Shown here in pieces: positions 1 to 8,031 of a DNA stretch of 8,031 nt. Every line of letters starts with the position of its first letter. Within the stretch, counting starts at the first letter, position 1. The notes under the pieces are model-generated. The model did no database searches. It was not told the origin of the DNA and was given only the letters and a program-made list of their open reading frames with translations. This DNA is from Weeksellaceae bacterium. GTDB lineage: Bacteria > Bacteroidota > Bacteroidia > Flavobacteriales > Weeksellaceae. Both the position numbers and the translations under genes were made by a program. The stretch is taken from contig JAQVDG010000079.1 of NCBI GenBank assembly GCA_028698395.1, positions 1 to 8,031 of the forward strand, read 5' to 3'.

Positions 1-2693
1 TTTAATTTTGAAATAATTTTATTTCCTCCTAGATAGTTATCCCATAATTGATTCTGAACATTTCTGTGACTTAATATTGTTATAGCTGTTGGCATTTGCA
101 CATCTTCAAATATTTTATCTCCTAAATCCTTAATTTCATGAATCTCTGTATTATTTAGCAAGAACTCTCTTAATTTCTCATATTGCATCCCTTTTATAAA
201 TAAACTCGGAGTGATATATCCAAATAAGCCATCAAGCTTTAATATTTTTATCCCCTTTTCAAAAAAGTAAGCATATAGATCGCCACAATTTTTAGTGAAA
301 TATTTTTCATATAATTGTTTATCAACTTGTACATAAGGGGGATTTCCAATGACCACATCAAAACCACCTTTGTATCTCTTTTTAAAGACTTCTTCAGGCG
401 TTTTCACAAACGAAGCAATTACTTCTTCCAACTTCTTACTTTGTGGTAATTGATGTTTGTGTCTGTTGTTTTCAATATATATCAAAGCATTTGAAAGATG
501 AGTAGCCTTGTACGGAAATCCACTTTCTTCTTCACTAATCCATTTCCAACTTTTAGTGTCAACCGAATAAAATTTTTGTGACCATAAGTGATTATTGTGT
601 TCATCGGGATGATAGGAATCGTGATTTTGATTTCTACCCAAGGCATCTCCTCCCAAGGCATCTTGATGCCTTGCCATAGTGTGCAATGGGTCAAGACCCA
701 TTGGGATGTCAGGAGTATCAGGATTCATTGGAGAAACAGATTCTGAACTTATCCATCGGTTTAATTCCTTGCTACTGATGGATTTCATGATTCGCACTTG
801 GTCGGTCAGTTCGTCTTCGGTACATACCAAAATAAGGTGAACATGGTCTTTACAAGCATTCCAAGCCAATACTTCAAGATTATAGTCTTTGATAATTTTC
901 CCGAAAATTTCAGCCAGTTTTATTTCCTGTTCGAGATTTAGATGAGCGGGTTTTCCGGGTACGATATTCAATTTCTTCATTCGTTCCGAAGTCCGGCTGT
1001 TGTGTGTAGTGAATACCAAATGATAGGCATTTTTTTCTTTGAAAATCTTTGGAAATTCTTTTTCCCAATTAAAAGCCAAATCTCCTGCTACTTCAGGGTC
1101 ATCTATAAGCGAATTTCCACATTTGAGGTTATTGTTTAAGCTATTGAGTTTTCTATTGGGTTCGGCAGTTCTGAGCCAAAGTGAAAGTTTGGCTATTTCT
1201 ACAGATTCTTCATTTAAGTCCACACCATAAAGGTTGTTTTCCAAAATGCTTTCTGAATGGTAAGAAAAAGCAATGGTAGAGTCAGTAAGTTTGGCTTCCA
1301 TTTCATCTATATGGGAGTGTTCTTCTATCAGAAAGTTCAAAGCTTCATTTAAAAAAGAACCGGAACCACAAGCAGGGTCTATAATAGTAATCTGATGTAA
1401 CCAAGTTCTGTAATCTTGTAGTTTTTTTAGAAGTATTTGTTTGGTTTTTAGCTGTCTGTTTTTATCAGTGTAATACTCCTCTTCATTAATTTCTAATTTT
1501 GCTTTTTTTTCCTCACAAAGCTTTCCTACCGTGTTTTCTACTATATATTTGGTGATGTATTTAGGAGTATAGAATACCCCATCTTTTTTGCGTTTTGTTT
1601 GTGTTTTATCAATTGCTTCACCTTCAATTTGCGCTTTGATTTCATCTATTTCATTGAGTGAGTGTTCAAAAATATGTCCAAGTATATTCACATCTACTTC
1701 ACTTTCAAAGTCATAGTCAGAAAGTTTTAGTGTGTGTTTGTATAATAGTTCATCATTGATTTTTGTATTGTCAAGTATTTCATCCGGTTTAAACAAACCA
1801 CCATTGTAGGCAAACACATCGAATTGTTTCCCTTTGAATCCTGTATTGAGATAGCCAAAGTATTTTCTAAATCGGTCATAAAGAGGAACATATTCATCGA
1901 GCTCTTTTAGTTTAATCCACTGGTCTAAAATCATCCTTACAGAATTGGGTGGCAACAAACCTCTATCTTCACCAAAGAATAGAAACAAAAGTCTATCGAG
2001 TAGTTTCTGTGATTTTTTAAAGAGTTCTAATTGATTGTACTCCGGATTTTCATCAATCAAATTTTGAAAAAGCTCTCTTTTAAAGACTGAATAATCTTTA
2101 TAGAGGTGTTTTGTGATTTCATCTTCTTTGCTGACTGATTCATTCTTGATTTTAGAAGCAATGTCATTTTTAATGTTCTCATAAGCAAGACAGAGATACA
2201 GCAATTTGAACTCATCTTCTGTAAGTTTAAACAGATTAAATTCTATATGTTCAATGGCATTATCAATATAGAATCTCAGTTTTTCAAAATTTGAAATAAC
2301 CACATATTTACAAGTAGGTTGGTTGTTTTTATAACCAAAAGCCTGTTCTTCCACTGTACCTAAATCTGTGGTGTCAGTACCTTTTAATTCTATTACAGCA
2401 GGAACTTTATCATCAATTATAATAGCACCATCAGCCTTTTTAGCATCTTTCACATTTTTGTATTCAGTGGTAAGATTAAAATCAGAAGTTGGATTGAGTG
2501 TATAGCCCAATACATTGACAAACAAATCTCTGAAAAAGCCTTCTTGATACTGCTCTTCTTTAGCTTTTTTGATGTTTTCTTGAATGGCAGGGTCATGAAA
2601 ATGAGAAGTAAACAAATTCCACTTTTCAGAAATAATTTCAGAATTTTGAGTTTTCAGGTATTTTGAAATGATTGTATTTTGAAATAATGCCAT
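1..2693 (-). CDS. Type IIG (Eco57I-like) restriction-modification enzyme with embedded HUH/Y1 transposase-like domain; 3' end beyond window
   Basis: A single open frame of 897 codons runs leftward from ATG at 2693 off the window edge. An in-frame TAA at 2712-2714 leaves this the only plausible start; there is no Shine-Dalgarno. The N-terminus carries a PD-(D/E)xK-type nuclease signature (D88, then VIELKG with E102 and K104). A helical region follows, then an adenine-N6 methyltransferase: motif X-like GVFYTPKYIT (372-381), SAM-binding DPACGSGSF (439-447), LYGVDLN (488-494), CGNSLI (525-530) and catalytic NPPY (784-787) within GGFDVVIGNPPYV. Nuclease plus methylase in one chain is the type IIG plan, cutting and methylating without partner subunits. 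Motif I to NPPY spans 345 residues, far more than usual, because residues of about 553-770 form a separate HUH/Y1-type domain. The target-recognition domain expected downstream of NPPY is mostly outside the window. No other defence gene is visible. Family assignment is firm; the cleavage specificity cannot be told. Confidence 0.93.
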   Translation of the reverse strand, partial: MALFQNTIISKYLKTQNSEIISEKWNLFTSHFHDPAIQENIKKAKEEQYQEGFFRDLFVNVLGYTLNPTSDFNLTTEYKNVKDAKKADGAIIIDDKVPAVIELKGTDTTDLGTVEEQAFGYKNNQPTCKYVVISNFEKLRFYIDNAIEHIEFNLFKLTEDEFKLLYLCLAYENIKNDIASKIKNESVSKEDEITKHLYKDYSVFKRELFQNLIDENPEYNQLELFKKSQKLLDRLLFLFFGEDRGLLPPNSVRMILDQWIKLKELDEYVPLYDRFRKYFGYLNTGFKGKQFDVFAYNGGLFKPDEILDNTKINDELLYKHTLKLSDYDFESEVDVNILGHIFEHSLNEIDEIKAQIEGEAIDKTQTKRKKDGVFYTPKYITKYIVENTVGKLCEEKKAKLEINEEEYYTDKNRQLKTKQILLKKLQDYRTWLHQITIIDPACGSGSFLNEALNFLIEEHSHIDEMEAKLTDSTIAFSYHSESILENNLYGVDLNEESVEIAKLSLWLRTAEPNRKLNSLNNNLKCGNSLIDDPEVAGDLAFNWEKEFPKIFKEKNAYHLVFTTHNSRTSERMKKLNIVPGKPAHLNLEQEIKLAEIFGKIIKDYNLEVLAWNACKDHVHLILVCTEDELTDQVRIMKSISSKELNRWISSESVSPMNPDTPDIPMGLDPLHTMARHQDALGGDALGRNQNHDSYHPDEHNNHLWSQKFYSVDTKSWKWISEEESGFPYKATHLSNALIYIENNRHKHQLPQSKKLEEVIASFVKTPEEVFKKRYKGGFDVVIGNPPYVQVDKQLYEKYFTKNCGDLYAYFFEKGIKILKLDGLFGYITPSLFIKGMQYEKLREFLLNNTEIHEIKDLGDKIFEDVQMPTAITILSHRNVQNQLWDNYLGGNKIISKL
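637..663. repeat. 12-bp direct repeat, 15-bp period
   Basis: CCCAAGGCATCT occurs at 637-648 and again at 652-663. The 15-bp period keeps the reading frame and encodes the repeated peptide DALGG / DALGR (residues 678-687) in the linker between the HUH motif and the tyrosine of the embedded domain. The second copy supplies the left arm of the palindrome at 654-673. Confidence 0.9.
654..673. repeat. Perfect 20-bp palindrome (9-bp arms, 2-nt centre), copy 1
   Basis: CAAGGCATC, centre TT, GATGCCTTG: nine perfect base pairs inside coding sequence. It shares the pattern CAAnGnnTC-nn-GAnnCnTTG with the palindrome at 684-703, 10 bp away. It encodes part of RHQDALG in the embedded domain's linker. The form resembles REP-type hairpins, the usual substrates of RAYT enzymes, but I see no GTAG or GGAG tetranucleotide at the hairpin foot. 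Confidence 0.9.
684..703. repeat. Perfect 20-bp palindrome (9-bp arms, 2-nt centre), copy 2
   Basis: CAATGGGTC, centre AA, GACCCATTG: nine perfect base pairs. Six of nine arm positions match the palindrome at 654-673, and both begin CAA and close on TC-nn-GA. It encodes PMGLDPLH in the linker. Two same-sized, same-patterned palindromes this close are unlikely to be chance. Confidence 0.9.
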
Positions 2694-2897: not shown

Positions 2898-5087
2898 TTA
2901 TAACTGTTGTCGGTCTAATTTTTCCATTCTTGTATCCTTGATATTTGCGGATTGAATCATAGAAGGAAGTAATTGTTGTGTGATTTTTTGTTGTTGTTGC
3001 TGACTCAATTGGTCGATTAAAAAAGTTGCATCTTCAACAGCAGGAGGATTGCCCATGTTTTTTAAATTGATAACATAAACACCTTCTTTTCCTTTGATAG
3101 CTTTAGAGTTTTGCCCTACTTGCATTCCGAAAGCTGCTCCGGCAACAAGTGGTTCTGTTCCTCTATCCGCAATATTTGCAGAACCAAAAGTTAAAGACGA
3201 ACTTCCTCTTTGTGCTCCGAATTTAGATACAAAATCATCAATAGTTGGATTTTCACCTAATTCTACGTTCACTTTTTGAGTTAATTTTTCCTGAACTAAT
3301 AAAGGTTCGATTTGGTCTCTAACCATGCTGGCAGGAGCTAATCCTTTTGGAGTTCTTGAAGTAAGGTAAACAATGATTTGGTCTTCATGAGCAGTGGTAA
3401 ATAAAAATGAACTGCCTACTTTGGTTTTTTTGTTGAAAGCCCATTTTAAAATGGCATCATCTGCATCATTTCCAAATCCTGAACCCGGATCAATAATAGA
3501 ACGATTGTTATAACGGGTAATATTTTCAGCTGTATCGTAGTTGAATCCTTTTGTCTGAGCTAAATTGGCAAAATCATTCAAAGATTTTCCTTGTACTTCT
3601 TGTGCGAAATTTCGGGCATCGTTAAAGTTTTTGTCAGAAGTATTTTGAGAAGCACTTACTTCTTTTACAATGTTAGCAAATTGGTACCCGGTTTGTGTTT
3701 TAATCCCATCAATTTTAATGATATGGAATCCAAACTGAGATTCTGTAATTCCAATTTCACCGGTTTTGTGTTCATTTAAGAATTGTAAATAAGCCGGAGC
3801 TAATCCTTGCGTATTACGTGCTTGCCATCCGATATTTCCGTCTTTTTCTTTTGACCCGATATCTTCAGAATATTGTGCAACTAAAGCTTTGAAGTTTGAA
3901 GCATCTGCCATGTTTTTGATGCTGTCTGCTAAAACTTGTGCTTCTGCACGGGTACGGGTGATGTTTTCTCTTGAAGCCAAATCAGTTCCTGCATACGTAA
4001 TTAAAATATGGCTGGAATTGATAGAGTCTGAAATTTCTTTAGAACCTGAGATTTTGACTAATTGGTAAGCATCTCCGGTTTTAAACGGACCTCCGATTTC
4101 TCCTACAGAAGCCGTCATCAAGAAGTTGAAATAATCTTCTGGCAACTGGACTTTGAATTGTTCAATTTCTTTACGGCTAATGTATTCACTGTTAAACGGT
4201 CTTTCCGAATATTTTGTTACATAAGCCGAATCATCTGTTACATTAGCAAAAGAAGGAATAGTATCGGTAATATTGTTAACTTCATCGATTGAAATATGTC
4301 CATTTAATAACTGATTTAAGCTATTTTTTACGTTGTTTTCATCTTCTTCTGAAGCTTTATTTACAAAATAAACATAGCTTAAATTTACGCTAGCCTCTAC
4401 TTCATAAGCTTTAGGAAATTTCTTTATGTAAGCTTCAATTTCAGCATCGGTAACTTCAATTTTGTATTTTGCAGTTAAATCGTCATACGAAATGAATCCA
4501 TAATCAAGGGTTGCATTTTGGATATTTCCGGCTTGCTGGATTTTTGCTTCTTTGTGAGTGGCCAAAGTTCCCATATTAACCATTTCCATATATTTCTGAC
4601 GAAGTAAGTTGGGACGTGCATTTTCAAAATTCATGATGAAATTCTGGTAAGCTTCGGCAGTTCCGGGAACTCCTTGCTCAGCCTGACTTTTTAGTTTCCC
4701 AATTTCAATTTTCAATTCTTCTCCACTTGTCATACTGTATTGTTGTGCCATATAGTTCCAAAGTTCGCCATCGCTTACTTCTAAACCGGCTTTCTCAGCA
4801 TGAGACTGAATTAATTTTTGAGAAACCAACGAATTCCAAATTTGCTCTGTAATTTGGGCATCCGAAAAATTAGGGTTGGATCTAACTTGGGATTTAGCTG
4901 TGATAAATTCCGCAAGTGTAATTGATTCGTTGTTTATTTTTCCTACTTCGTTAGGGTCTCCGGTAAAAACTCTTTTTACTACTGAGTTTTCACTAAATAA
5001 ATCTCCCGCTACGAAAGCAAGCATCGCTACACCGATTACTACGATCAACAAGCCCGTTTGTTTACGAATTTGTCCTAAAATTGCCAT
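2898..5087 (-). CDS. ppiD: PpiD/SurA-like periplasmic peptidyl-prolyl cis-trans isomerase
   Basis: A 729-residue protein beginning MAILGQIRKQ. One N-terminal membrane anchor (about residues 12-29, LLIVVIGVAMLAFVAGDL) follows a short basic cytoplasmic end, so the bulk faces the periplasm. A SurA/PpiD-type helical chaperone region follows (about 45-225: VGKINNESITLAEF, then VSQKLIQSHAEKAGLEVSD). A parvulin domain lies at about 357-462, with SSHILITY, YSEDIGSKEKDGNIGW and ITESQFGFHIIKID as its usual landmarks. A further C-terminal parvulin-like or chaperone segment runs to about 680 and ends in a Gln-rich tail. It is expected to help newly exported outer-membrane proteins fold, which suits the upstream barrel protein and lptC. 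The 147-bp gap to lptC contains a possible promoter of its own, and a strong terminator follows. The name ppiD rests on architecture; the Bacteroidota members are longer and diverged from the E. coli protein. Confidence 0.9.
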   Translation of the reverse strand: MAILGQIRKQTGLLIVVIGVAMLAFVAGDLFSENSVVKRVFTGDPNEVGKINNESITLAEFITAKSQVRSNPNFSDAQITEQIWNSLVSQKLIQSHAEKAGLEVSDGELWNYMAQQYSMTSGEELKIEIGKLKSQAEQGVPGTAEAYQNFIMNFENARPNLLRQKYMEMVNMGTLATHKEAKIQQAGNIQNATLDYGFISYDDLTAKYKIEVTDAEIEAYIKKFPKAYEVEASVNLSYVYFVNKASEEDENNVKNSLNQLLNGHISIDEVNNITDTIPSFANVTDDSAYVTKYSERPFNSEYISRKEIEQFKVQLPEDYFNFLMTASVGEIGGPFKTGDAYQLVKISGSKEISDSINSSHILITYAGTDLASRENITRTRAEAQVLADSIKNMADASNFKALVAQYSEDIGSKEKDGNIGWQARNTQGLAPAYLQFLNEHKTGEIGITESQFGFHIIKIDGIKTQTGYQFANIVKEVSASQNTSDKNFNDARNFAQEVQGKSLNDFANLAQTKGFNYDTAENITRYNNRSIIDPGSGFGNDADDAILKWAFNKKTKVGSSFLFTTAHEDQIIVYLTSRTPKGLAPASMVRDQIEPLLVQEKLTQKVNVELGENPTIDDFVSKFGAQRGSSSLTFGSANIADRGTEPLVAGAAFGMQVGQNSKAIKGKEGVYVINLKNMGNPPAVEDATFLIDQLSQQQQQKITQQLLPSMIQSANIKDTRMEKLDRQQL

Positions 5088-5118
5088 CTTATGATTTTAT
5101 TAATTTTTTAATAGGTGG

Positions 5119-5126
5119 CGAAATTA
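5119..5126 (-). promoter_or_regulatory. Possible -7 element for ppiD
   Basis: On the minus strand TAATTTCG matches the Bacteroidota -7 box TAnnTTTG at all but one defined position, and would place transcription start about 25 bases before the ppiD ATG. No clear TTTG -33 box stands at the usual spacing, so this is weak. The rest of the lptC-ppiD gap (5088-5234) is AT-rich. It contains one imperfect inverted repeat just after the lptC stop, CTGT/ACAG with flanking AAATT arms, but no clear T-tract. Confidence 0.35.
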
Positions 5127-5234
5127 CAATATTTCTGTTAATTTGAAAATTGGAATGAGATAAAATTCATTATTATAGGTAGGAAAAGTGAAAATTGGTG
5201 TAATTTTCTGTAAATTATTGAGTTTTCACAGAAA

Positions 5235-5816
5235 TTAAAGTTCTTGTTCTCGATAAAATTTAGTTCCTTGGTTATTGAATAATCGGTATTCTGTTAAATC
5301 ATCTTTGGCTTCTAATCCATTATTGGCTTGTAGAGAATCTCCGGATTTAGAAATGATATAAACAGTATCTTTTGAGAAAACTTTTCTTTCTTTTTTATTC
5401 CAAAATAATTTTTCTGTTTTCAGCGTATCTCCTTTTTCACTGATAACGATTACGTTTCCACGACCTTCATACCAATCTTTTATTTCGCTCATATAAGCCC
5501 AGTCGGCCCGTAAATAGCCCGGCGAATCCAAGTTTTTGGTGTAAAAATTTAATTCAACTCCTTTTGGAAATTGAGTAAAAGGAGAATCTTGCATGGCATA
5601 TTCTTCTATTAAAGGAGACCATAGATTGATTTTAATGAATCCGGAATCTTTAAAAACAACATGTGCATTGGTTAGAGAGCGGCTGGGGAAATTCATTTTT
5701 TTGAAATCCATGTCCACATCCTCTAATTTGGCACAAGCGATGACTAAACCGGCAAAATAAAAAGGAATGATTCTTTTCCGAAAAAAAAAAGTGTATATGG
5801 AAAAGAGAAAATTCAT
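5235..5816 (-). CDS. lptC: LptC-like LPS-transport lipoprotein
   Basis: A 193-residue protein. In the LPS export machine, LptC passes lipopolysaccharide from the LptBFG inner-membrane transporter to the periplasmic bridge. Residues 16-27 are hydrophobic and end in VIA followed by Cys28, a lipobox; Bacteroidota LptC proteins are commonly lipoproteins where the E. coli protein has a membrane helix. The body is a beta-rich OstA/LptC-type fold: GVELNFYTKN (86-95), YLRADWAYM (101-109), EGRGNVIVISEKGDTLKTEKLFWNKK in part (117-142) and a final G-D-S-L repeat (159-162). It starts 6 bp after the stop of the barrel-protein gene, so the two are co-transcribed. The N-terminus is odd: codons 9-13 contain a run of ten T, giving FFF, ahead of the expected short Arg/Lys-plus-hydrophobic signal. 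No downstream ATG would preserve the signal peptide. Confidence 0.85.
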   Translation of the reverse strand: MNFLFSIYTFFFRKRIIPFYFAGLVIACAKLEDVDMDFKKMNFPSRSLTNAHVVFKDSGFIKINLWSPLIEEYAMQDSPFTQFPKGVELNFYTKNLDSPGYLRADWAYMSEIKDWYEGRGNVIVISEKGDTLKTEKLFWNKKERKVFSKDTVYIISKSGDSLQANNGLEAKDDLTEYRLFNNQGTKFYREQEL

Positions 5817-5822
5817 GTTATT

Positions 5823-7091
5823 TTAGTCAATTACACGTTTTCTGAACCAAAGGTCGTTGAGTGTGAAACCTATTCTTAAATTCGCAAAATCTTCTTTAAC
5901 TGCGAAGTTTTTGGTATTGCCCATACTTCCGAACTCACAAGAAATATTCAACATGGAAGCATCTCTGTCTTTACCTATCGGAAGTCCTAAACCTACGCTT
6001 AAACCATACATATTGATGGATTTATCGTTGATTTTCAATGGGGTTTTTTCATAAAAAGCTCCAAACCGGTACACGATTCGGTCAAAATAACTTTTGTAAC
6101 TGTTAAAATTAGGTATCCAATAACCACCTACACTTGTTCGGATTTGTGTGTCGTACAAGGAAGATTTTTCACCGTTTAATTTATAATTACTCCAGTCGCT
6201 CCAGTCCAATTGAGCACCAACCATCCATTTTAAATCTTTTTTATAGGAAGCGGCTAAGGAAATTTTTTGAGGAAGTTTTACATCACCATAGATTTTTTTA
6301 TACTGAACAGTGTCGATATTAATCGGAGTTAAGTCCGCTAAAGAATAAGTTGTGGTTAAATCTTCAGTTGTTGCATTTAGTTCAGAACCTAAAGTGTAAG
6401 TCAAACCTACGTCAATTCTTTTATTATCGGTCAAAGCTTTAGTGTACAACCCTCCTAAAGTGAATTGAAATCCGTGAATATTTGTTTTGTATGTATAATC
6501 GGTATTTAAAGCCAGACCTTGAGGTATTAAGGTTTGTGTCCGGTTAAAATCTCCAAATAAATAATTGACTCTCAATCCGGCAGAAAATTCAGGTGAAATA
6601 GTGTAAGCCCCCATGAGATGCATGGAATTTACTCCTCCATTTCCTTTAAAAAGTTTTGCATAGGTAATATCGGAATTTTGTCCTATTAAACCTAAATCAT
6701 AACTGGAAGAGGAATAAGGTGTAAATCCAAATCCGGCTCTAATTTTTGGTCCAATCGGGAAAGCTAATGAAAGATTAGAAATATAAGTTGTACTTTTTTT
6801 CAGAGAATAAGTATGGTCTTTTAAAGATTTCATATCTGTACTTGCACTTAAATCGAAAGAAGTAACTCTTAAATCACGGTTAACTGCCGGGTTATAAAAG
6901 TTGGCACTTCCATTAAAAGGGCTGGAGTTAACAGCTGAAAGACCACCCATTCCGGATTGTTCTATACTACCGCCAAAAAACAAAGTTCCTACTCCTACAG
7001 CAGAGTAGGGAGAGACTGAAGTGCTTTGTGCACTTGAAGAAACCGATAAAGATAAAATCCCTAAGAAGGTTAAAACGCTTTTTAATTTCAT
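5823..7091 (-). CDS. FadL/PorV-like outer-membrane beta-barrel protein
   Basis: A 422-residue protein from ATG at 7091. The frame stays open to a TTG at 7118, but MKLKSVLTFLGILSLSVSSSAQ is a textbook signal peptide with cleavage after SSA, so 7091 is preferred. The mature start SPYSAVGVGTLFFGG, followed by QSGMGGLSAVNSSPFNGSANFYNPAVNRDLRV in part, is typical of Bacteroidota FadL/OMPP1-like barrels, which open with a short Ser-Pro-Tyr-Ser element and an N-P-A motif. The remainder alternates polar and aromatic residues in likely strands (ISLAASYKKDLKWMVGAQLDW in part; VYRFGAFYEKTPL; YGLSVGLGLPIG) and ends in a strand-like LRIGFTLNDLWFRKRVID. It probably sits in the outer membrane; the substrate cannot be told. 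It is the first gene of an operon with lptC, which fits an envelope role. Confidence 0.8.
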   Translation of the reverse strand: MKLKSVLTFLGILSLSVSSSAQSTSVSPYSAVGVGTLFFGGSIEQSGMGGLSAVNSSPFNGSANFYNPAVNRDLRVTSFDLSASTDMKSLKDHTYSLKKSTTYISNLSLAFPIGPKIRAGFGFTPYSSSSYDLGLIGQNSDITYAKLFKGNGGVNSMHLMGAYTISPEFSAGLRVNYLFGDFNRTQTLIPQGLALNTDYTYKTNIHGFQFTLGGLYTKALTDNKRIDVGLTYTLGSELNATTEDLTTTYSLADLTPINIDTVQYKKIYGDVKLPQKISLAASYKKDLKWMVGAQLDWSDWSNYKLNGEKSSLYDTQIRTSVGGYWIPNFNSYKSYFDRIVYRFGAFYEKTPLKINDKSINMYGLSVGLGLPIGKDRDASMLNISCEFGSMGNTKNFAVKEDFANLRIGFTLNDLWFRKRVID

Positions 7092-7115
7092 GCGTATGAT
7101 TCTAATTTGAAGTTG

Positions 7116-7146
7116 CAAATATGATGATTAGATTGCAAATAGCAAA
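7116..7146 (-). promoter_or_regulatory. Likely promoter of the barrel-protein/lptC operon
   Basis: On the minus strand TTTG (7143-7146) is followed, after roughly 20 bases, by CATATTTG (7116-7123), one mismatch from the Bacteroidota -7 box TAnnTTTG. Transcription would begin near 7110, about 20 bases before the ATG at 7091. The plus-strand word TTGCAAATA occurs twice, at 7113-7121 and 7133-7141. Confidence 0.45.
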
Positions 7147-7225
7147 AAAGCATTCTGTGAATTCCTTGTTAAAACAGTTTTAAAAGTGAAAAAAGAATAA
7201 TTTTTCACGCAGATTGAAAAAAATT

Positions 7226-7254
7226 TTTGCAGTTCCAAAAAAGTTATATATTTG
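7226..7254 (+). promoter_or_regulatory. Promoter of tRNA-Phe
   Basis: TTTG at 7226-7229, a 17-base spacer, then TATATTTG at 7247-7254: an exact match to the Bacteroidota TTTG / TAnnTTTG pattern. The predicted start near 7260 leaves a 5' leader of about 10 bases before the tRNA. Confidence 0.8.
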
Positions 7255-7270
7255 CAGTCCCAAATGAGTC

Positions 7271-7343
7271 GGTGCCTTAGCTCAGTTGGTAGAGCAAAGG
7301 ACTGAAAATCCTTGTGTCCCTGGTTCGATTCCTGGAGGCACCA
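7271..7343 (+). tRNA. tRNA-Phe (anticodon GAA)
   Basis: A 73-base cloverleaf. The acceptor arms GGTGCCT and AGGCACC pair perfectly, with discriminator A at 7343. The D-arm is GCTC/GAGC, the anticodon stem AAGGA/TCCTT holds the loop CTGAAAA with anticodon GAA, and the T-loop is TTCGATT. The CCA end is not encoded (the sequence continues CTT), so it must be added after transcription. The T-stem CCTGG/CCTGG has a T-T mismatch in the middle (7321 with 7333). It is a single gene with its own promoter and terminator, convergent with pheS. Confidence 0.97.
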
Positions 7344-7348
7344 CTTTT

Positions 7349-7379
7349 AAAAAGTACTTCAATTTTGAAGTGCTTTTTT
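7349..7379. terminator. Bidirectional terminator between tRNA-Phe and pheS
   Basis: AAAAAGTACTTCAA pairs with TTGAAGTGCTTTTT (one G-T pair; the innermost A-T pairs probably open into the loop). A T-run of six closes it on the plus strand and the A-run gives T5 on the minus strand, so it can end both convergent transcripts. It starts 6 bases after the tRNA. Confidence 0.88.
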
Positions 7380-7441
7380 GTTTTATGACTTTTTAAGTAT
7401 AAATGATTGGTGTAAAATTCCACCAAAATTAACAACAGATT

Positions 7442-7468
7442 TTACTGTTTAACTTAGAAAAACAGTAA
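7442..7468. repeat. 9-bp inverted repeat downstream of pheS
   Basis: TTACTGTTT (7442-7450) and AAACAGTAA (7460-7468) are perfect inverted copies with a 9-nt loop. The stem is AT-rich and has no good T-tract on either side, so it is a poor terminator by itself. It may help to end or protect the pheS transcript. Confidence 0.4.
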
Positions 7469-7514
7469 TATAGAATCTTTTAAAGTGTTGTTAGGCAAAG
7501 AAAACGATAGAATT

Positions 7515-8031
7515 TTAAATAAAATCCGATTTGAATTGTTCTAAAAACCGAATGTCATTTTCAGTGTACATACGAATATCTCCGATTTGATACAGTAAAA
7601 GAGCGATTCGCTCAATTCCCATTCCAAATGCATAACCACTGTATCTTTCCGGGTCAATATTAACATTTTTCAGTACATTCGGATCAACCATTCCGCATCC
7701 CATAATTTCCAACCAACCGGTTCCTTTGGTAATCCGGTAATCGGTTTCGGTTTCTAATCCCCAATAGACATCTACTTCAGCACTGGGTTCAGTAAACGGA
7801 AAATAAGAAGGGCGCAGACGGATTTTGGATTTTCCAAAAAGAGCTTCGGTAAAATAGCTTAAAGTTTGTTTTAAATCAGCAAAAGAAACGTTTTTATCGA
7901 TGTATAAACCTTCAATCTGGTGAAACATCATGTGTGAACGTGCCGATATGGCTTCATTTCTATAAACTCTACCCGGTGAAAGGATTCGGATAGGTGGTTC
8001 ATTTTTTTCCATATAACGGATTTGTACGGAA
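7515..8031 (-). CDS. pheS: Phenylalanine--tRNA ligase alpha subunit, C-terminal part (5' end beyond window)
   Basis: The last 172 codons of a class II synthetase subunit, roughly half the usual 340 or so residues. The frame is open to the right edge, and the Met at 8012 is internal (preceded by VQIRY). It charges tRNA-Phe together with PheT as an alpha2-beta2 enzyme in the cytoplasm. Visible landmarks are motif 2 ([20 protein letters not shown]), the FHQIEG stretch of the substrate pocket, [13 protein letters not shown], and motif 3 in [23 protein letters not shown]. The Ala of GYAFGMG (codon 7629-7631) corresponds to the small pocket residue Ala294 of E. coli PheS, which sets discrimination among phenylalanine analogues. 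The gene ends convergently with tRNA-Phe. pheT is not in the window. Confidence 0.97.

Follow-up and report, generated by a model that had tools for sequence, protein, structure and literature searches.

The window, the whole 8,031-nucleotide stretch analysed here (positions 1 to 8,031 of contig JAQVDG010000079.1 from a Weeksellaceae bacterium, assembly GCA_028698395.1), carries at one end a composite gene in which a type IIG restriction-methylase encloses a domain resembling the tyrosine transposases associated with repetitive extragenic palindromes (REPs), known as RAYTs. The features of this gene given below lie on the minus strand. The open reading frame (3-2693) continues beyond the window edge at its C-terminal end; 897 amino acids fall inside the window, and the database copy of the protein, P0001, is 1169 amino acids long. 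From the N to the C terminus, the protein comprises an AD...ELK block, a helical part, the methylase motif I DPACGSG, the CGNSLI motif, an insert of about 224 residues that is missing from insert-less relatives, the stretch GGFDVVIGNPPY and the recognition part. As an earlier note made from the sequence alone had read it, the frame is uninterrupted across both insert junctions, with no stop codon at either.

The insert (residues 552-775; 369-1040) is confirmed, by sequence profile and predicted fold, as an HUH/Y1 transposase domain nested in the restriction-methylase. The earlier note had placed such a domain at 378-1037, and comparison with insert-less relatives upholds the insert while moving its limits. 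Residues 585-646 match the Pfam family Y1_Tnp (PF01797) with 30.3 bits against a gathering cut-off of 23, and this match falls between the regions best matched by MmeI_Mtase (423-549) and Eco57I (738-862). Foldseek searches with the model of the domain, which is predicted to be HUH-like, returned only IS200/IS605-type transposases or TnpA_REP (4er8) among the best 30 PDB ranks, and in the whole-protein model, which is of moderate quality, a methylase fold appears on both sides of the insert. The motifs named in the note are all present, namely, the HUH motif H617-V618-H619 (837-845), the LWSQKF strand of the HUH fold (residues 703-708; 570-587) and YIENNRHKH (453-479), which includes the candidate catalytic tyrosine Y739 (477-479). 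In an alignment of 44 full rows (29 once inserts at least 85% identical are merged), both HUH histidines, W704, Q706, K707 and Y739 are invariant, as are the S and F of the LWSQKF strand, whereas the middle residue of the HUH motif is V, L or I. The predicted HUH fold with a single candidate catalytic tyrosine agrees with the anatomy of RAYT and TnpA_REP proteins, and the domain is referred to here as RAYT-like.

The enclosing enzyme is assigned to type IIG by PADLOC, which labels the full copy P0001 as REase_MTase_IIG (PDLC03609, E = 1.7e-284); the NCBIfam model for BREX-1 (bacteriophage exclusion) PglX gave 140.6 bits, below its threshold of 500. The methylase motif I (residues 439-445; 1359-1379) is invariant in all 61 aligned homologues, as is the NPP of motif IV, NPPY (residues 784-787; 333-344), the Y being conserved in at least 90% of the rows. 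In the AD...ELK block (residues 88-104; 2382-2432), which we take, by eye, to be a putative PD-(D/E)XK nuclease core, D88, E102 and K104 are each conserved in at least 90% of the 61 rows. Like other type IIG restriction-methylases (MmeI, 5hr4; PDLC03609), the protein combines methylase and recognition parts in one chain with the same fold; BpuSI (3s1s) aligns with it too, though at 21.4 Å. What sets the composites apart is the stretch between VF and GGFD, which counts two residues in insert-less relatives and about 170-270 in composites. Database names are uneven: P0020 from Chryseobacterium suipulveris is named BREX-1 PglX at the source, with an NCBIfam PglX score of 154.9 against the cut-off of 500 and type IIG as its best PADLOC label, and the automatic Joint Genome Institute (JGI) names of P0016 and P0017 already refer to both halves.

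The insert lies between the methylase strands carrying motifs III and IV. The spacing from CGNSLI to IGNPP is exactly 29 residues in all 114 insert-less relatives listed and 207-297 residues in 43 composites (the pattern did not match in 5 of 162 proteins); as the note had supposed, the insertion occupies a loop that tolerates it. At the DNA level, the junction is identical across the 14 filled genes readable by script, and the VF-to-GGFD gap amounts to two codons in 12 of 13 insert-less genes. The thirteenth (L100, G019:C31) carries 11 in-frame codons with the palindrome CCCCCTTTGAAGGGGG at the exact site of the RAYT-like domain, and the loop therefore accepts other small repeats as well. That a large folded domain is tolerated beside a methylase catalytic motif is useful to protein engineers.

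The nesting is recurrent at this one site, in line with an impression of recurrence in Bacteroidota that the note had offered as unverified. A query with the insert only, run against proteins of similar total length, gave 48 matches, the window's own included, and 46 of them contain both Y1_Tnp and Eco57I (PF07669). A scan of GTDB genomes yielded 12 loci (eight composites and four stand-alone genes), mostly from Saprospiraceae or other Chitinophagales, with one from Algibacter; one locus is filed under Thermus/Deinococcus, which may be a binning error. In samples of two orders, which contain six genomes previously known to be domain-positive, the domain was found in 4 of 395 genomes from the order of G009, always as a composite, and in 11 of 396 genomes from the order of G003, as eight composites in seven genomes and four stand-alone genes. 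When a restriction enzyme served as the query, composites made up 7 of the 23 places matched in 298 genomes and 2 of the 14 matched in 246 genomes, where one gene can yield two matched places. A second subtype, with ATHDSR or ATHNSR and LWTQKF or LWAQKY, occupies the identical site with its motifs intact (L015, L016, L026-L028), and G453 carries two composites, of different subtypes.

The domain also carries REP-like palindromes, which the earlier note missed. Under the limits of our scan (arms of at least 8, loop of at most 6, arm GC of at least 0.3), the window contains only two, each of 9+2+9 nucleotides and both in the linker of the domain, with no further ones outside it: CAATGGGTC-TT-GACCCATTG on the coding strand (684-703), read in frame as PMGLDPL, and CAAGGCATC-AA-GATGCCTTG (654-673), read as ARHQDAL. 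This linker is the most variable part of the domain among composites, and the peptides PMGLDPL, ARHQDAL, PMGHDPL and SNGFKPIG found there are translated palindromes. Perfect palindromes with arms of at least 9 are present inside the domain in 15 of the 16 composite genes for which DNA was available (19 palindromes in total), and the sixteenth, L027, has one with a mismatch; synonymous shuffles predict 0.14 inside the domain and 0.25 elsewhere in the frames, where seven further palindromes occur, one of which, in L007, probably precedes the true start. Three palindromes outside the domain are present in L015. In 13 of the 16, the window included, the in-frame palindrome lies in the HUH-to-W linker, and in the remaining three it follows the Y motif.

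In a like-for-like comparison, internal perfect palindromes were found in 14 of 15 composite genes versus none of 14 insert-less genes. Within 350 bp upstream, the corresponding figures are 7/15 and 0/14, and within 350 bp downstream 4/15 and 2/14, with little or no flank available on one side for L001, L002, L087, L089 and L092. One of the two insert-less downstream palindromes separates the insert-less gene from the composite in the tandem of L003. In that locus (L003:5042-12073), the insert-less and composite type IIG genes stand in tandem, with the palindrome between them, downstream of an mnmE-like gene; the composite of L007 also lies directly downstream of mnmE, the gene name being presumptive. 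The mnmE of L007 contains a translated TTGTCAA microsatellite (7761-7795), and over 20 stretches resembling it occur across the genome.

Related palindromes are dispersed in some of the host genomes. The CAANGGRNNNNNNYCCNTTG pattern occurs 65 times in G001, 67 in G007, 39 in G003, 15 in G005 and 14 in G004, all composite genomes, and 3-11 times in four genomes with stand-alone genes, compared with 0-1 for the reversed control. A looser pattern was counted 45 times in G453 versus 10 for its control; all 20 dispersed copies read there sit outside open frames longer than 117 codons, and 26 copies give the consensus TCCAATGGGTCATGACCCATTGGA, with little conservation beyond it. In G587, where the looser pattern is control-like (14/15), a family AAGGGGTTG[CG]AACCCCTT has four copies, which cluster within 5 kb at the composite. 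In G001 (L029-L048), a longer unit flanked by GTAGTAAA and TTTACTAC accounts for most of the 22 copies read. This unit is conserved over the 80 bp compared and has an inner CAATGGAACAGGTTCCATTG palindrome.

To gain insight into the history of the insert, we compared trees of the methylase part and of the RAYT-like domain. On the methylase tree (35 composite and 32 insert-less rows), composites and insert-less enzymes are interleaved, with 17 changes, 13 of them forced by well supported branches, and constraining the composites together was rejected (p = 1e-55). On the RAYT tree, by contrast, one origin of the composites was not rejected (p = 0.21); in the free tree, stand-alone genes fall among the composites, with weak support. 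The insert thus appears to spread between alleles at one site. The second subtype forms one clade on the RAYT tree, whereas its members are dispersed over the methylase tree (p = 2.6e-8). Individual pairs bear the same mark: P0002 is 98.6% identical to the insert-less P0053 before the insert and 97% identical to the insert-less P0049 after it, and P0006 and P0016 are 99.5% identical in the first part but differ after the insert (46%), indicating reassortment of the first part, the insert and the recognition part. To explain this without any new mechanism, homologous recombination in the conserved flanks is sufficient. P0006-P0017 combine a near-identical first part and insert with a variety of recognition parts, which points to rapid specificity change. 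Alleles that have or lack the insert, with flanks that are almost identical, constitute a natural experiment.

Given the palindromes in and beside the gene, their dispersal in some hosts and the patchy presence of the insert, we regard the nested domain as a REP-associated (RAYT-like) enzyme still tied to its repeats, and consider it probable that a REP transposase uses the restriction gene as its vehicle. Under this scenario, the enzyme would still methylate and cut duplex DNA at sites set by its C-terminal recognition part, with the extra domain positioned outside the methylase core. The nested domain would cut and join single-stranded DNA through Y739, guided by hairpins that resemble those of its own linker and those beside the gene; over time, such hairpins would have been seeded within the gene, near it and, for some hosts, genome-wide. 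The presence of the domain in the loop may trace back to one or a few entries, followed by its gain and loss in further restriction-enzyme alleles, for the most part through homologous recombination in the conserved flanks.

A number of observations weigh against this interpretation. The activities of both halves are predictions from sequence and models, and the whole-protein model is of moderate quality (pLDDT, the per-residue confidence, 75.7; pTM, the predicted template modelling score, 0.50). A profile search of the kind proposed in the earlier note succeeded for Y1_Tnp, whereas the NCBIfam models REP_Tyr_transpos and transpos_IS200 gave 18.5 and 33.6 bits against cut-offs of 80 and 55, respectively. 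The GTAG foot, a feature of canonical REPs, is not seen here, showing no enrichment and a loose match within 14 nt in 7 of 46 palindromes. The CAANGGRNNNNNNYCCNTTG pattern is hardly dispersed in the composite genomes G002 (3 copies), G008 (6) and G009 (0), and the looser pattern is control-like in G330 (8/5), G388 (6/5), G532 (8/10), G029 (3/0) and G009 (4/3). Most of the G001 copies listed have a centre unlike the in-gene palindrome, and the flanking palindromes of L003 are unlike its inner one. Because 2-9 Y1 matches occur in each of 12 genomes, the copies could owe their spread to other enzymes, and for this reason the longer unit of G001 may belong to another enzyme. Finally, the insert clade of the window (8 rows) needs only two changes on the methylase tree of the composites, and inheritance is therefore partly joint.

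The earlier note took the transposase to be domesticated as part of a defence enzyme. The HUH domain would then serve the restriction enzyme, for instance, by acting on the single-stranded or hairpin DNA of invaders, which it would nick or join; the palindromes would be relics. The catalytic residues are indeed retained although inserts fall to 36% identity with that of the window, and the architecture is present in many genomes. However, the 67 methylase rows imply at least 13 gains or losses of the insert, which is thus dispensable to the enzyme, the palindromes remain perfect despite sequence differences from locus to locus, as for live substrates, and repeats are dispersed in some genomes. 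Domestication therefore appears unlikely to us, and a REP-linked passenger fits better.

Retained catalytic residues speak against a dead insertion, in which a RAYT gene landed in frame in the loop and was kept as tolerated ballast: the tolerance of the loop, exemplified by the 11 codons of L100, would permit it, but both histidines, the tryptophan and the tyrosine are invariant in 44 of 44 rows, the second-subtype motifs are intact and the palindromes are perfect in 15 of 16 genes, leaving this the least credible of the explanations. Whether the nested RAYT moves the whole unit, REP-[restriction gene]-REP, in the manner of an IS-like or REPtron-like element is a question raised by flanking palindromes, which L003, L004 (one side mismatched), L007 and L086 show on either side of the gene and L008, L087 and L088 show upstream of it. 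Nonetheless, none of 12 genomes contains a second copy of the same composite, and the two composites of G453 are of different subtypes; no empty locus with a palindrome scar was found, and three relatives of G007 carry other genes downstream of mnmE; and perfect palindromes are missing from the 350 bp ahead of 8 out of 15 genes (L001 lacks upstream sequence). We accordingly deem mobility of the whole gene quite unlikely, and return to the restriction gene as the vehicle of a REP transposase.

This interpretation invites comparison with inteins that carry homing endonucleases, which share with the composites an in-frame location at a fixed site beside a conserved catalytic motif, a patchy presence and a phylogeny of their own; the difference is that the nested domain presumably stays in the protein product, and HUH enzymes are not known to carry out protein splicing. 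A more speculative and, in our opinion, doubtful extension is that of a translated, never-excised mobile domain, in which the nested RAYT, through the hairpins of its own coding sequence, would itself copy the domain from one restriction-enzyme gene to another, or exchange it among them, at the fixed loop and owe its persistence to the addictive restriction enzyme. If so, the life of the mobile domain would be intein-like, minus protein splicing. RAYTs are mostly single-copy, and how they persist is an open question, to which residence in a restriction gene that is difficult to lose would offer one answer. Restriction-modification and REP/RAYT repeats, which have been studied apart, are joined here.

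Among known proteins, the closest parallel in the literature is RAYT subclass 2.4, for which the relevant sections of Quentin et al. (2018; PMC6006769) describe frame-keeping REP insertions between the HUH and Y motifs and an abundance in Bacteroidetes and Cyanobacteria. Shared with the composites are the HUH-Y1 core, the in-frame REPs between HUH and Y and, for about half of the composite genes, palindromes adjoining the gene; the motifs differ, being NH[IFV]H, WQ and YIxNNP in subclass 2.4 and DHVH, WSQ and YIxxNRxKH in the composites. Given these motifs, the NCBIfam score and the GTAG foot, the domain is a candidate RAYT in formal terms, while being RAYT-like by anatomy. The same sections state that unexpectedly long proteins, considered fusions or annotation errors, were discarded. 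RAYTs of E. coli, S. maltophilia and Marinomonas cut single-stranded REP hairpins, according to the pertinent passages of PMC8266576, and REPs within other genes are mentioned in those of PMC3733652. In-frame REPs in RAYT genes being already known from what PMC6006769 reports, the new point is that restriction enzymes repeatedly contain, at a single site, a RAYT-like enzyme together with its palindromes. A full-text literature search, with preprints and most subscription journals beyond its reach, found no paper on a restriction enzyme that has a RAYT or Y1 transposase inside it. The IS200/IS605 TnpA proteins share the fold and the HUH/Y1 residues with the nested domain, which differs from them in falling under the NCBIfam IS200 cut-off and in its copy number: in each of the 12 genomes scored, a single gene of this RAYT clade stands far above the others, weak matches aside. 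Stand-alone 'TTHNSR' Y1 proteins of Bacteroidota (L006, L010-L012 and most of P0163-P0282) correspond to the same domain end to end, many share the linker peptides PMGHDPL and NGFKPI, and palindromes adjoin the gene in four loci; unlike the composites, 115 of the 120 listed have no methylase sequence, although some may be contig-end pieces.

Upstream of the composite gene, the remainder of the window (2898-8030) encodes proteins which, judging from their sequences, appear to resemble a PpiD/SurA-type chaperone, an LptC-like protein, an outer-membrane protein and PheS.
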